From positions 248,001 through 312,000 of the forward strand of contig NZ_BMPH01000001.1 in the NCBI RefSeq assembly GCF_014647495.1: DNA of 64,000 nt, given 5' to 3'. The notes beneath the pieces are model-generated. The model did not search any database, was not told the origin of the DNA, and saw only the letters and a list, made by a program, of their open reading frames with translations. How positions within the stretch are numbered: position 1 is the stretch's first letter; every line of letters begins with the position of its first letter. The position numbers were made by a program, and so were the translations under genes. This stretch comes from Glutamicibacter protophormiae (GTDB lineage: Bacteria > Actinomycetota > Actinomycetes > Actinomycetales > Micrococcaceae). Below are positions 15,389-19,341 of the stretch, piece after piece.

Positions 15389-16450
15389 CTAGGCGGTCGC
15401 GAACTGGCCCATCAGTTCTTCGAGTTTCGCGGTGAAGGCGTCCACGTCGGCCTCGGTGGTGTCGAAAGAGCACATCCAGCGCACCTGGCCGGCGGCGCGG
15501 TCCCAGTCGTAGAAGCGGAAGTGCTGGCGCAGCTCGTCGCTGACCGACGTGGGCAGCTGGGCGAACACGCCATTGGCCTGGGTCGGGTAGACCAGCTCCA
15601 CGCCGTCGATGCGCTGCACCGCGGCGGCCAGCTTCGCGGCCATGGCGTTCGAATGCCCTGCCAGCTCGCGCCACAGCCCGGTGCCGTAGAGCTCGATCAG
15701 CTGCGCGGAGATGAAGCGCATCTTGCTGCCCAGCTGCATGTTCATCTTGCGCAGGTACTTCATGTCGGCGGCCAGCTCGCTGCGCAGGGTCAGGATGCCC
15801 TCGCCCAGCAGCATGCCGTTTTTGGTGCCGCCCAGCGAGACGATGTCCACCCCTGCGTCGGTGGTCAGCTCGCGCAGCTCGACCCCCAGCGAGGCGGCGG
15901 CGTTGGACAGCCGCGAGCCGTCCAGGTGCACCTTCATGCCCAGCTGGTGCGCGTGCGCGGTGATCGCCTTGATCTCCTCGGGGGTGTACAGCGTGCCCAG
16001 CTCGGTGGCCTGGGTGATCGACACGGCCAGTGGCTGCGCCCGGTGCTCGTCGCCCCAGCCCCAGGCCTGCTGGTCGATCAATTCAGGGGTCAGCTTGCCG
16101 TCAGGGGTGTCCACCTGCAGCAGCTTGAAGCCGCCCACACGCTCCGGGGCGCCGTTCTCGTCCACGTTGATGTGGGCGCTGGAGGCGCAGATCACCGCAC
16201 CCCAGCGCGGCAGCAGCGACTGCAGGGCGGTGACGTTGGCGCCGGTGCCGTTGAACACCGGGAAGATCGCAGCCTGCTCGCCGAACAGCTCGCGCGCCAG
16301 CGCATCGAGCTGCTCGGTGTACTGGTCCTCCCCGTAGGAGATCTGGTGGCCGCCGTTGGCGCGCTCGATGGCCGCCAGGATCCGCGGGTGCACGCCCGAG
16401 TAGTTGTCCGAGGCGAATCCGCGCAATGCCGTGTCGTGGCTGAAGGTCAT
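15389..16450 (-). CDS. ltaE: Low-specificity L-threonine aldolase
   Basis: This PLP enzyme cleaves threonine or allo-threonine to glycine and acetaldehyde. The 353-aa protein from the ATG at 16450 contains the fold-type I aldolase blocks: FASDNYSGVHP at the N-terminus, GTGANVTAL for phosphate binding, HLDGSRLSNAAA with the PLP-pairing Asp, and the Schiff-base lysine in SLGGTKNGML. AAAGGA lies about 13 bases before the start, a weak site. It is the last gene of a set with an SDR and a DUF6421 protein, separated from the SDR by 149 bases containing a hairpin. Confidence 0.9.
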   Translation of the reverse strand: MTFSHDTALRGFASDNYSGVHPRILAAIERANGGHQISYGEDQYTEQLDALARELFGEQAAIFPVFNGTGANVTALQSLLPRWGAVICASSAHINVDENGAPERVGGFKLLQVDTPDGKLTPELIDQQAWGWGDEHRAQPLAVSITQATELGTLYTPEEIKAITAHAHQLGMKVHLDGSRLSNAAASLGVELRELTTDAGVDIVSLGGTKNGMLLGEGILTLRSELAADMKYLRKMNMQLGSKMRFISAQLIELYGTGLWRELAGHSNAMAAKLAAAVQRIDGVELVYPTQANGVFAQLPTSVSDELRQHFRFYDWDRAAGQVRWMCSFDTTEADVDAFTAKLEELMGQFATA

Positions 16451-16556
16451 GATGGGGGAGATCCTTTGCAGGTCGGGGCCGGCCGGTGGGCCGGGGAAAA
16501 TGGTGGGCGCGGCACATCGGCCGGTGGGCCGTGTTCCGCGCCGGTGGCGGCAGGAC

Positions 16557-16590
16557 GCCTGCCCGCCGCCGGAAGCGGCTGCGGGCAGGC
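16557..16590 (-). terminator. Intercistronic hairpin between SDR and threonine aldolase genes
   Basis: A 10-bp stem (16557-16566 with 16581-16590, GCCTGCCCGC type) stands just after the SDR stop. No U-tract follows on the minus strand, so it may attenuate or stabilise the mRNA rather than terminate fully. Confidence 0.4.
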
Positions 16591-16599
16591 ATGCGCAGG

Positions 16600-17346
16600 C
16601 TAGGACTTGGGCGCCGCGGGCTTGGCCTTCGCGCCGGCCTTGGGCAGCGCGACGCGGGTGCCGTTGAGCTTCGCGGCGTCGGGCCGCAGCGCGTCCACCG
16701 CGGCCTTGGCCAGGAACTCGACCGGGGTGTGCCCCTCGGGCGCCTGGTCCGCCGGCTTGTCGCTGAGCGCCTTGACCACCCAGCTGAAGGCCGAGGCCTG
16801 CGGCGCCTGCTTGCTGAACAGCCGTGCCACGGCGTTGACCCAGTGCTCCGCGGCGGCCTTGACGGCGCCGTAGTTCGCGTTGGACGGGGTCGGGTTGACC
16901 ACCGATTCGGAGCTGACGATCGCCAGCCGCCCGGCCTCGGAGGCCACCAGGTCCTCGACGAACACGCGGCTGGTATTGCGCAGCGTGGTCATGACGGACT
17001 CGTGCAGGAAGTCCCAGTCCTCGTCGCTCTGCCCGGCGATCGACTTGCCGCCGCGCCAGCCGCCGACCAGGTGCAGCAGCACGTCGATCGGGCCGTGCTG
17101 GCCGTGGATGGTGTCGCGCAGGTGCTCGACCGCCGGGTGGTAGGCAAGATCGCACTGGTAGCGCAGCACGCCGCGCGGCATGCGCTCCACTAGCCGATCC
17201 GCATCGCTGCCGATGGCCAGCACCTTGGCTCCCGCCTCCATCAGCGCTTTCGCGCAGGCGATGCCGGATGCCGAGGTGGCCCCGGCGATGAGAACCACCG
17301 GGGCCTTGCGGCCTTGCTGCTTCTGGTCCAATGTTTGTTCGCTCAC
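16600..17346 (-). CDS. Short-chain dehydrogenase/reductase
   Basis: The 248-aa protein starts with a Rossmann motif IAGATSASGIA, a variant of TGxxxGxG. It continues with the cofactor-contact LVGGWRGG region in place of NNAG, the catalytic Ser in IVSSESV and the YxxxK pair in NYGAVKAAAEHW. It is therefore probably active with NAD(P), substrate unknown. The C-terminus is a lysine/alanine-rich tail. It begins 38 bases after the DUF6421 stop. The GTG start lacks a ribosome-binding site and is preceded by TAGGCT with 6 bases between, so it may have a separate leaderless transcript. Confidence 0.85.
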   Translation of the reverse strand: MSEQTLDQKQQGRKAPVVLIAGATSASGIACAKALMEAGAKVLAIGSDADRLVERMPRGVLRYQCDLAYHPAVEHLRDTIHGQHGPIDVLLHLVGGWRGGKSIAGQSDEDWDFLHESVMTTLRNTSRVFVEDLVASEAGRLAIVSSESVVNPTPSNANYGAVKAAAEHWVNAVARLFSKQAPQASAFSWVVKALSDKPADQAPEGHTPVEFLAKAAVDALRPDAAKLNGTRVALPKAGAKAKPAAPKS

Positions 17347-17358
17347 GTACCTAGCCTA
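17347..17358 (-). promoter_or_regulatory. Possible leaderless promoter -10 (TAGGCT) of the SDR gene
   Basis: On the minus strand TAGGCT (17358-17353) is followed by exactly 6 bases and the GTG start. It would give an internal promoter in the operon. Confidence 0.5.
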
Positions 17359-17384
17359 AATCAAGCGGGCCTGAAAAGGGCCGA

Positions 17385-18770
17385 CTAGATGCGGTCAGCG
17401 CCGGTCATGCCGCGAGTGGACTCGATGACCGCGGTCATCTTCTTGGACAGCGCCTCGTAGAACATGGACAGCGGGAACTCGTCGTCCATCACCTGGTCGG
17501 TGATCTCGCGCAGCGGCGAGGTCAGCGGCAGCGCCTGAGGGCCCTTGGCCCAGACCGAAGCCGGGTGCGGAGTGACGGTGGCGGAAACCAGCTCGTAGGC
17601 GGCCAGCCAGTGCGCCAGCTTCGGGCGGTCGATGGACTTCCAGTACAGCTCGTCGATCTTCTCGCCCAGCGCGGCGACCACCGCGGGCACCTCGGCCCAG
17701 TCGATGCGCAGCTTGGTGTCGGTCCAGTGCAGCACGTGGTGCTGGTGCATCCAGGCGAACAGCAGCTGGCCGCCCAGGCCGTCATAGTTGCGCACGCGCG
17801 AGCCGGTGATCGCGAAGCGGAAGATCCGGTCGAAGATCACCGCGTACTGCACGAGTGCGGCCATTTTCGCGGTCTTTTCGTCCGCTGAGGGATCCGCGGC
17901 GATCTTCATGCATTCGCGGAATGCGGTCAAGTCGCAGCGCAGCTCCTCCAGCGAGTACAGGAAGAACGGCATACGCTGCTTGATCATGAACGGGTCGAAG
18001 GGAAGGTCCCCGCGCATGTGGGTGCGGTCATGGATCAAATCCCACATGATGAACGCCTCTTCAGCCAGCGGCTGGTCCTCGAGCAGGCGCGCCGCCTCGG
18101 CGGGCAGTTCCAGGTTCGTGATCTGCGCGGCGGCCTTGAGCACCTTGCGGAATCGTGCTGCCTCGCGGTCCTGGAAGATCGCGCCCCAAGTGAACGACGG
18201 GGTCTCGCGGATCGCGACCGACTCGGGGAAGAGCACCGCAGAGTTGGTGTCGTAGCCGGCGGTGAAGTCGATGAAGCGCAGCGGCACGAACAGCTTGTTC
18301 GAGTACTCGCCGGCCTCGAGCTGCGAAATGAACTCGGGCCAGATCACCTGGACCAGCACCGCTTCGAGGTGGCGGTTGGTGGATCCGTTCTGGGTGTACA
18401 TCGGGAAGAGCACCAGGTGCATCAGCCCGTCCACGCGCTGGGTCTGCGGCTGGAATTCCATAAGCGAATCGAGGAAGTCCGGCACGCCGAAGCCCTGCTC
18501 GGCCCAGCGCCTCAGGTCTGCGACGAGCTTGTCCAGGTAGTCGGCCTCGTGCGCGAAGAAGCCGCGCAGGGTCTGGATGGAGTCGACGATCGTGTCGACC
18601 AGCTCGCCGGCGCGGACGCGCTGCTCGGGCTCGGCCACGGAGCCGTCCTTGAGCTGCAGACCCTGGAATTCAGTGGCGGCGGCCTTGAGTCCAAGCCATG
18701 CGTCGGACTCGGCGATGCGGCGGGCGTCGGAGGGGCTGGTTGGCCGTGGTTCTGCGGAAATCTGGGTCAT
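17385..18770 (-). CDS. DUF6421 family protein
   Basis: The 461-aa protein is cytosolic and mostly helical. It has conserved-looking acidic/aromatic blocks (VLFPMYTQNGS; WDLIHDRTHMRGDLPFDPF; QLLFAWMHQHHVLHW). The last two are histidine-rich (HDRTH, HQHH) and suggest metal binding, which is an inference. I assign it to DUF6421, an actinobacterial family that travels with an SDR and a threonine aldolase. No biochemical role is known to me. GAAGG stands before the ATG. It heads the operon, with a perfect palindrome about 95 bases upstream. Confidence 0.7.
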   Translation of the reverse strand: MTQISAEPRPTSPSDARRIAESDAWLGLKAAATEFQGLQLKDGSVAEPEQRVRAGELVDTIVDSIQTLRGFFAHEADYLDKLVADLRRWAEQGFGVPDFLDSLMEFQPQTQRVDGLMHLVLFPMYTQNGSTNRHLEAVLVQVIWPEFISQLEAGEYSNKLFVPLRFIDFTAGYDTNSAVLFPESVAIRETPSFTWGAIFQDREAARFRKVLKAAAQITNLELPAEAARLLEDQPLAEEAFIMWDLIHDRTHMRGDLPFDPFMIKQRMPFFLYSLEELRCDLTAFRECMKIAADPSADEKTAKMAALVQYAVIFDRIFRFAITGSRVRNYDGLGGQLLFAWMHQHHVLHWTDTKLRIDWAEVPAVVAALGEKIDELYWKSIDRPKLAHWLAAYELVSATVTPHPASVWAKGPQALPLTSPLREITDQVMDDEFPLSMFYEALSKKMTAVIESTRGMTGADRI

Positions 18771-18863
18771 TGAGATACACCTTCTTCTTCGGTAGGGCAG
18801 CGTTCAGTTGCTTAACTAGAACGCTACGCCCATCGAAAGGAAAAGTAATCCTGACTCCTCGGT

Positions 18864-18882
18864 GAATAAGCAATGCTTATTC
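18864..18882 (-). promoter_or_regulatory. Perfect 19-bp palindrome with LysR-type T-N11-A geometry
   Basis: GAATAAGCAATGCTTATTC is a perfect inverted repeat around one central base, with T18867 and A18879 giving the T-N11-A pattern of LysR-type boxes. It lies in the intergenic region that must hold the promoter of the DUF6421-SDR-aldolase operon. No regulator gene is adjacent. Confidence 0.6.
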
Positions 18883-18918
18883 TTGGGGTGACTTGCGTCG
18901 CTTCACGCTGAGCACTGT

Positions 18919-19341
18919 TTAGCCCTGCGTTTCGCGCAGCTTCAAGCTCAGCGAATTCATGCAGTACCGCAGGTCGGTCGGGGTTCCGAAGCCCTCGCCC
19001 TCGAACACGTGGCCCATGTGCGAATCACAGTTGGCGCAGCGCACCTCCACGCGCTTCATCCCCATCGACTCGTCGGTGATGTAGCGGACGCGGTCTTCGG
19101 CCAGCGGTGCGAAGAACGAGGGCCAGCCGCAGCCGGCGTCGAACTTGGTGGTGCTGGCGAACAGTTCGGAGCCGCAGGCACGGCAGGAATACACGCCCTC
19201 GGTCGTCGTGTCCCAGTATTCGCCGGTGAACGGGCGTTCGGTGCCGGCCTGTCGCAGGACGTGGAATTCTTCGGGGGAGAGAACCTGGCGCCAATCGATC
19301 TCGGCGGGGTTCCGGTCTTCGGTGTTCTGGTTTTCGTTCAT
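18919..19341 (-). CDS. msrB: Peptide-methionine (R)-S-oxide reductase
   Basis: This enzyme repairs methionine R-sulfoxide in proteins. The 140-aa protein has both zinc CxxC pairs (CRACGS and RCANCDSHMGHVF), the CGWPSF substrate loop and the catalytic cysteine in RYCMNS. It is a single MsrB domain without MsrA fusion and without a signal peptide, so cytosolic. The start is the ATG at 19341, with GGAGG about 12 bases before it. It is divergent from the alpha/beta hydrolase gene, 61 bases away. Confidence 0.95.
   Translation of the reverse strand: MNENQNTEDRNPAEIDWRQVLSPEEFHVLRQAGTERPFTGEYWDTTTEGVYSCRACGSELFASTTKFDAGCGWPSFFAPLAEDRVRYITDESMGMKRVEVRCANCDSHMGHVFEGEGFGTPTDLRYCMNSLSLKLRETQG

Follow-up and report, generated by a model that had tools for sequence, protein, structure and literature searches.

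A conserved DUF6421, short-chain dehydrogenase and threonine aldolase operon of actinobacteria as a candidate pterin-dependent pathway

Described relatives of the operon

The operon described here lies in a 64,000-nt stretch of the 3.83 Mb genome of Glutamicibacter protophormiae (the window, in which all coordinates below are positions unless another locus or contig is named). It is carried on the minus strand and consists, in gene order, of a DUF6421 gene, a gene for a short-chain dehydrogenase/reductase (SDR) and a gene for a pyridoxal 5'-phosphate (PLP)-dependent homologue of L-threonine aldolase. The best described DUF6421 protein is PolE of polyoxin synthesis (Streptomyces cacaoi cluster), an L-isoleucine 3,4-desaturase with a strict requirement for Fe(II), O2 and tetrahydrobiopterin (BH4), the activity of which rises 2–3 times when quinonoid dihydropteridine reductase (QDPR) is added (Du et al. 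2025, Nature Chemistry, PMC12614342). The family motif HE/DxxH-x(21–23)-E is needed for oxidation, soluble PolE motif mutants are inactive, and a new Fe/pterin enzyme family was proposed, many members of which are encoded beside amino-acid-modifying enzymes (PMC12614342). A search of the main text of that paper for the terms 'aldolase', 'short-chain', 'operon' and 'threonine' gave no match. A literature search found no description of the DUF6421-SDR-aldolase trio as a pterin-dependent pathway; the enzyme family is already published, and the trio as a pathway seems to be undescribed.

The second relevant system is the SCO1089-SCO1088-SCO1087-SCO1086 operon of Streptomyces coelicolor, the genes of which are annotated as hypothetical, oxidoreductase, L-threonine aldolase and hypothetical; it is driven from a SigB-dependent promoter, and under osmotic stress each of its four genes proved SigB-dependent (PMC8346170). 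SCO1086 is transglutaminase-like and is bound and repressed by ArgR (PMC3293853, PMC5839063). SCO1089 is apparently a DUF6421 gene, to judge from the gene order, from a transglutaminase-like gene in fourth place (present in seven of our loci) and from its promoter, which matches the region upstream of DUF6421 in one locus (L047) at 36 of 44 bases, against 24–27 in nine other loci. The gene order is that of the Streptomyces-like loci examined. The differences are the SigB-type promoter, the fourth gene and the 19-bp palindrome that precedes the Glutamicibacter operon, sites of this type being absent or poor in Streptomyces-like loci.

The DUF6421 protein of the window is, close to certainly, a member of the PolE-type Fe/pterin oxidase class. 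It matched Pfam PF19985 at 785.7 bits (cut-off 25) and SnPolE at an E-value of 7e-13 (phmmer), and its metal motif, H247-D248-R-T-H251-x23-E275, aligned to that of PolE. All 21 diverse homologues aligned keep the HDxxH...E ligands unchanged, and H247, H251 and E275 are the predicted Fe(II) ligands. An earlier note, made from the letters of this DNA alone, had taken the protein for an unknown enzyme with possible metal ligands in HDRTH and HQHH. The enzyme class turns out to be a published one (PMC12614342); HDRTH is explained by a PolE-type metal site, with H247, D248, R249 and H251 invariant in all 21 homologues, whereas H342 alone is invariant in HQHH (342–345). With the predicted structure (predicted local distance difference test, pLDDT, 81) as query, the first six Foldseek ranks were all PolE chains of SnPolE or SmPolE (E 7e-12 to 2.4e-11, TMq 0.57–0.61). 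The Pfam family, metal motif and fold are therefore common to the window protein and PolE (PDB 9j2e for SnPolE, 9j3g for SmPolE), but the two share only about 18–19% identity in structural alignments, the window protein has 461 residues against 373–391 and HD where PolE has HE, and it is accompanied by an SDR and an aldolase where PolE has PolF. The nearest named relative found was Glutamicibacter sp. JC586, whose DUF6421 protein is 80% identical.

Conservation of the trio

The three-gene operon is widespread in soil actinobacteria. In the 30 best loci of the host's taxonomic family (80 genomes), DUF6421 adjoins the SDR in all 30, and the aldolase is present in 28, one of the others ending early and one lacking the gene. 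Across 40 wider regions, which include some from the same genomes, one with only a weak PolE-like match (L050) and one that stops at a contig edge (L053), DUF6421 is followed by the SDR in 36 cases and by an intact aldolase in 34. Among the best 80 of the 590 loci found (the named loci), 78 have the SDR, 69 the aldolase and 67 both. The linkage is very strong and the HDRTH histidines do not vary, so that neither of the refuting conditions named in the earlier note applies: the three genes, correctly placed there on one strand, form a conserved pathway unit that plausibly has a beta-hydroxy amino acid as its substrate, as was suggested there.

The SDR goes with DUF6421 and not with the aldolase. 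The aldolase is missing from 11 of the 80 named loci, and the SDR is still beside DUF6421 in all 11; in each of 14 genomes tested with an aldolase-less DUF6421 locus, an aldolase of 58–68% identity is encoded elsewhere. DUF6421 is present in 54 of the 80 host-family genomes, and the SDR subfamily (matches above 200 bits, the next being at most 106) was detected in 49 of these 54 and in none of the 26 that lack DUF6421. All 50 SDR copies in the family are on the strand of DUF6421 and follow it at a distance of 15–203 bp.

Some DUF6421 loci depart from the usual arrangement. In a distant actinobacterial group, long DUF6421 frames were seen at L052 (9090–11192, minus), L053 (70–2241, minus), L054 (7891–10053, plus) and L055 (9125–11413, minus). 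They carry an added N-terminal domain of about 270 amino acids, alike in all four and, in L054 (the one scanned), DUF4350/GATase-like (Pfam, E 2e-11). The idea that DUF6421 frames of 640–762 amino acids are DUF6421-SDR fusions was rejected, as L052, L054 and L055 each have the SDR as a gene of its own; in these three, which are not cut off, DUF6421 is still followed by SDR and aldolase. A long DUF6421 frame in L036 is taken to be a gene-calling artefact. At L041, the second DUF6421 copy of genome G009, the SDR is kept and the aldolase is reduced to fragments (49% over 79 amino acids and 52% over 44).

Proposed pathway and alternatives

The window SDR has the SDR fold (model pLDDT 94) and matched Pfam adh_short at 74.5 bits. 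It carries an HLVGGWRG loop and the pair Y159-x3-K163; LVGGWRG and Y-x3-K are found in 30 of 30 aligned host-family members, and GGWRG is kept in the wider SDR set, where Streptomyces-like proteins read GGWRGS. When the C-terminal, substrate-binding half was compared with PDB sequences, dihydropteridine reductases (DHPRs) took ranks 1 and 2 (E 1.3e-5) and made up six of the 26 matches, with GGWRGG aligned to GGWAGG, TPVEFL to TPLEFL, and 35 of 129 aligned residues identical. The corresponding enrichment has a p-value of about 4e-8, or 1e-5 with near-duplicates collapsed, a rough estimate that assumes seven DHPRs among 562 SDR sequences. The window protein resembles DHPR (QDPR; PDB 1hdr, 1dhr, 1ooe, 8b5t) in its fold and Y-x3-K pair and, less clearly, in its GGWxGG loop and TPxEFL-like C-terminal stretch, but over its full length it is nearer to FabG-like SDRs. 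Since the half and full-length searches disagree, it is suggested with moderate confidence that the SDR works like a dihydropteridine reductase, without being classed as one. The genomic logic fits pterin recycling, because the SDR belongs with DUF6421 rather than with the aldolase and PolE needs a reduced pterin.

The aldolase homologue matched Pfam Beta_elim_lyase (PF01212) at 167.8 bits and the L-threonine aldolase 5vye at an E-value of 7e-88 (298 bits, residues 10–344), with the GGTKNG lysine motif aligned. It belongs over its full length to the same PLP family as the L-threonine aldolases of PDB 5vye, 7yvr and 1v72, and differs from them in its genomic partners.

From these observations we infer a three-step route, which as a whole is the likeliest of the explanations considered but is judged to fall just short of probable. 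DUF6421, with Fe(II) held by its three predicted ligands, would oxidise an amino acid using O2 and a tetrahydropterin; as a threonine aldolase constantly accompanies it, the reaction may be a hydroxylation at the beta-carbon and not the 3,4-desaturation of PolE. The SDR would reduce the resulting quinonoid dihydropterin with NAD(P)H in the manner of dihydropteridine reductase, and the aldolase would cleave the resulting beta-hydroxy amino acid to give glycine plus an aldehyde.

The pterin context of the host family is compatible with such a route. The host genome, which has no classical pterin hydroxylase, has two pterin-4a-carbinolamine dehydratase (PCD) genes (C2:58776–59036, plus, and C2:120441–120701, minus), and PCD occurs in 39 of the 54 DUF6421-positive family genomes and in eight of the 26 negative ones (p 6e-4, uncorrected for relatedness). 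The classical pterin hydroxylase domain PF00351 was found in none of the 80. A comparative-genomics study of 2011 connected PCD proteins with the metabolism of molybdenum cofactor (PMC3223725), so other PCD clients are possible.

Several observations weigh against the proposed route. The desaturated product of a PolE-type reaction is not a substrate for an aldolase. The position of SnPolE Y157 (mutated as Y157A) is occupied by T194 in the window protein, in an alignment judged by eye, and the two enzymes may therefore have different substrates. Full-length profile searches with the SDR placed glucose/ribitol dehydrogenases and FabG-type enzymes first, and no DHPR was among the best 60 of 562 matches; none was among the best 50 fold matches listed either, although DHPR and other SDRs were not told apart by the fold searches and an absence from those matches does not exclude it. 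With a profile of the SDR half, the best DHPR ranked 23rd; when the query was the corresponding half of either of two distant orthologues, it ranked 3rd and 18th. The window SDR keeps the usual catalytic Ser (Ser-Tyr-Lys); DHPR is not known to have a Ser at that position. The strict dependence of the SDR on DUF6421 holds in the host family and fails across the phylum: among 396 genomes, DUF6421 occurs in 22 and an SDR match above 170 bits in 25, four of which lack DUF6421. At those four SDR loci (L170–L173; genomes G394, G199, G133 and G253) neither DUF6421 nor the aldolase was found in the surroundings, which hints at another client for the operon-type SDR or at a remnant. Conversely, L074, L075, L154 and L169 have DUF6421 and the aldolase without the SDR. 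Lastly, 15 of the 54 DUF6421-positive family genomes lack PCD, which rules out a strict PCD requirement for DUF6421.

Part of this evidence would suit an SDR that acts on the carbon skeleton, reducing the released aldehyde or interconverting a beta-hydroxy and a beta-keto amino acid while a general reductase recycles the DUF6421 pterin; the earlier note had likewise assigned the SDR to the substrate or product of the aldolase. The full-length affinity to FabG, ribitol and ketose dehydrogenases and the classical Ser-Tyr-Lys pattern speak for it, and the main text of PMC12614342 mentions no dedicated short-chain enzyme for PolE. Such a role is nevertheless rather unlikely and is not favoured here: the SDR tracks DUF6421, staying beside it at every named locus without the aldolase and depending on it for its presence in the host family, and its substrate half, weakly DHPR-like, is closest to the DHPRs.

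An operon for the synthesis of an unusual amino acid, in which DUF6421 desaturates or hydroxylates and the aldolase either condenses or has some unrelated hydroxy amino acid as its substrate, is improbable, as L-threonine aldolases normally cleave and the main DUF6421 clade, with its presence in most host-family genomes, has housekeeping neighbours and no evident biosynthetic clusters. In its favour, the product of PolE is a biosynthetic building block, and Du et al. suggest such a role for DUF6421 clusters generally and note amino-acid-modifying neighbours for many DUF6421 genes (PMC12614342). It is very improbable that DUF6421 is a hydrolase or peptidase related to dipeptidyl peptidase III (DPP III) and not an oxidase. 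Structures of DPP III do come next after PolE in the Foldseek ranking, but at E-values of 3e-7 or weaker against about 1e-11 for PolE, and DUF6421 conserves neither the HExxGH motif nor the catalytic His of DPP III (PMC12614342).

Regulation, neighbouring features and implications

The coordinates of the operon and its surroundings are given in Table 1. The earlier note had bounded the operon at 16450–18918, a span that contains the DUF6421 and SDR genes but leaves most of the aldolase gene outside.

Table 1. Features of the DUF6421 operon region in the window
Feature	Position	Strand	Basis or role
Palindrome, 19 bp, ATAAG-N5-CTTAT core, T-N11-A	18864–18882		Probable operator of the operon
DUF6421 protein, 461 aa, predicted PolE-type Fe(II)/pterin-dependent amino-acid oxidase	17385–18770	minus	PF19985, PolE similarity
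SDR oxidoreductase, 248 aa, proposed pterin-recycling enzyme	16600–17346	minus	adh_short, co-occurrence with DUF6421
PLP-dependent L-threonine aldolase homologue, 353 aa	15389–16450	minus	PF01212, match to 5vye
SDR-aldolase spacer, strong predicted RNA hairpins without U tract	16451–16599	minus	Minimum free energy against shuffles
msrB (SelR), co-oriented upstream neighbour	18919–19341	minus	PF01641, 171 bits

The palindrome noted earlier before the first gene, GAATAAGCA-A-TGCTTATTC, is indeed perfect and lies about 94 bp ahead of the DUF6421 start. It is the sole match at three or fewer mismatches both in the window (none in 100 shuffles) and in the whole genome. At comparable positions, at least eight of the ten bases of ATAAG-N5-CTTAT are present in 25 of 38 non-redundant host-family upstream regions (shuffled mean 1.09, maximum 3, in 100 rounds), against two of 18 outside the family; 42 of the 80 named loci reach 8/10. 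On these grounds the palindrome is probably a conserved operator of the operon in the host family. Relatives tend to have a second, weaker copy 32 bp nearer the gene (mean score 4.2, against 2.26). A pair of sites with this spacing, three helical turns, would suit a LysR tetramer, and other regulators as well.

The earlier description of the palindrome as a LysR-type site stands as far as its T-N11-A form and its conservation upstream go, but there is no LysR gene beside the operon, and the single one on the contig, of 14 in the genome, is about 200 kb away. When all 14 were scanned for the palindrome, the best upstream sites scored 8/10 and were not distinctive. One candidate (L089) carries two sites, scoring 8/10 and 7/10, at 1444–1503, exactly 32 bp apart as at DUF6421, but is not convincing as a partner, since the LysR gene faces a gene for a major facilitator superfamily transporter (named by eye). 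Another (L082), which we take to be part of a LysG-LysE pair, is no more convincing, and no regulator is therefore named. An Lrp/AsnC gene lies divergently beside DUF6421 in seven of 120 loci, from several groups. In the host family a regulator at the palindrome would switch the operon, and in Streptomyces this would fall to sigma factors of the SigB type.

The spacer between the SDR and aldolase genes folds as RNA to a minimum free energy of -80 kcal/mol (z -4.56), with one of 200 shuffles equally stable; the minus strand shows no terminator-like site there, and the predicted hairpins are possibly an attenuation or processing element. The msrB gene lies upstream of DUF6421 in the same orientation in 68 of the 120 loci examined and is conserved there in the host family; it is probably a neighbour rather than a member of the operon.

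Until the report on PolE in 2025, the Fe/pterin oxidases of amino acids were known chiefly in the form of aromatic hydroxylases. It is tentatively proposed that the main DUF6421 clade is a widespread pterin-dependent beta-hydroxylase of ordinary amino acids, with a dedicated dihydropteridine reductase and a threonine aldolase, forming a stress-induced and self-contained route to glycine and an aldehyde. If this is true, the 'orphan' PCDs of actinobacteria without aromatic amino acid hydroxylases would have at least a partial client, and the commonest DUF6421 proteins would form a primary-metabolic pathway, with built-in cofactor recycling, in a great many soil actinobacteria. Two questions would then become directly testable, namely what this large uncharacterised family acts on and how actinobacteria use pterins outside folate.

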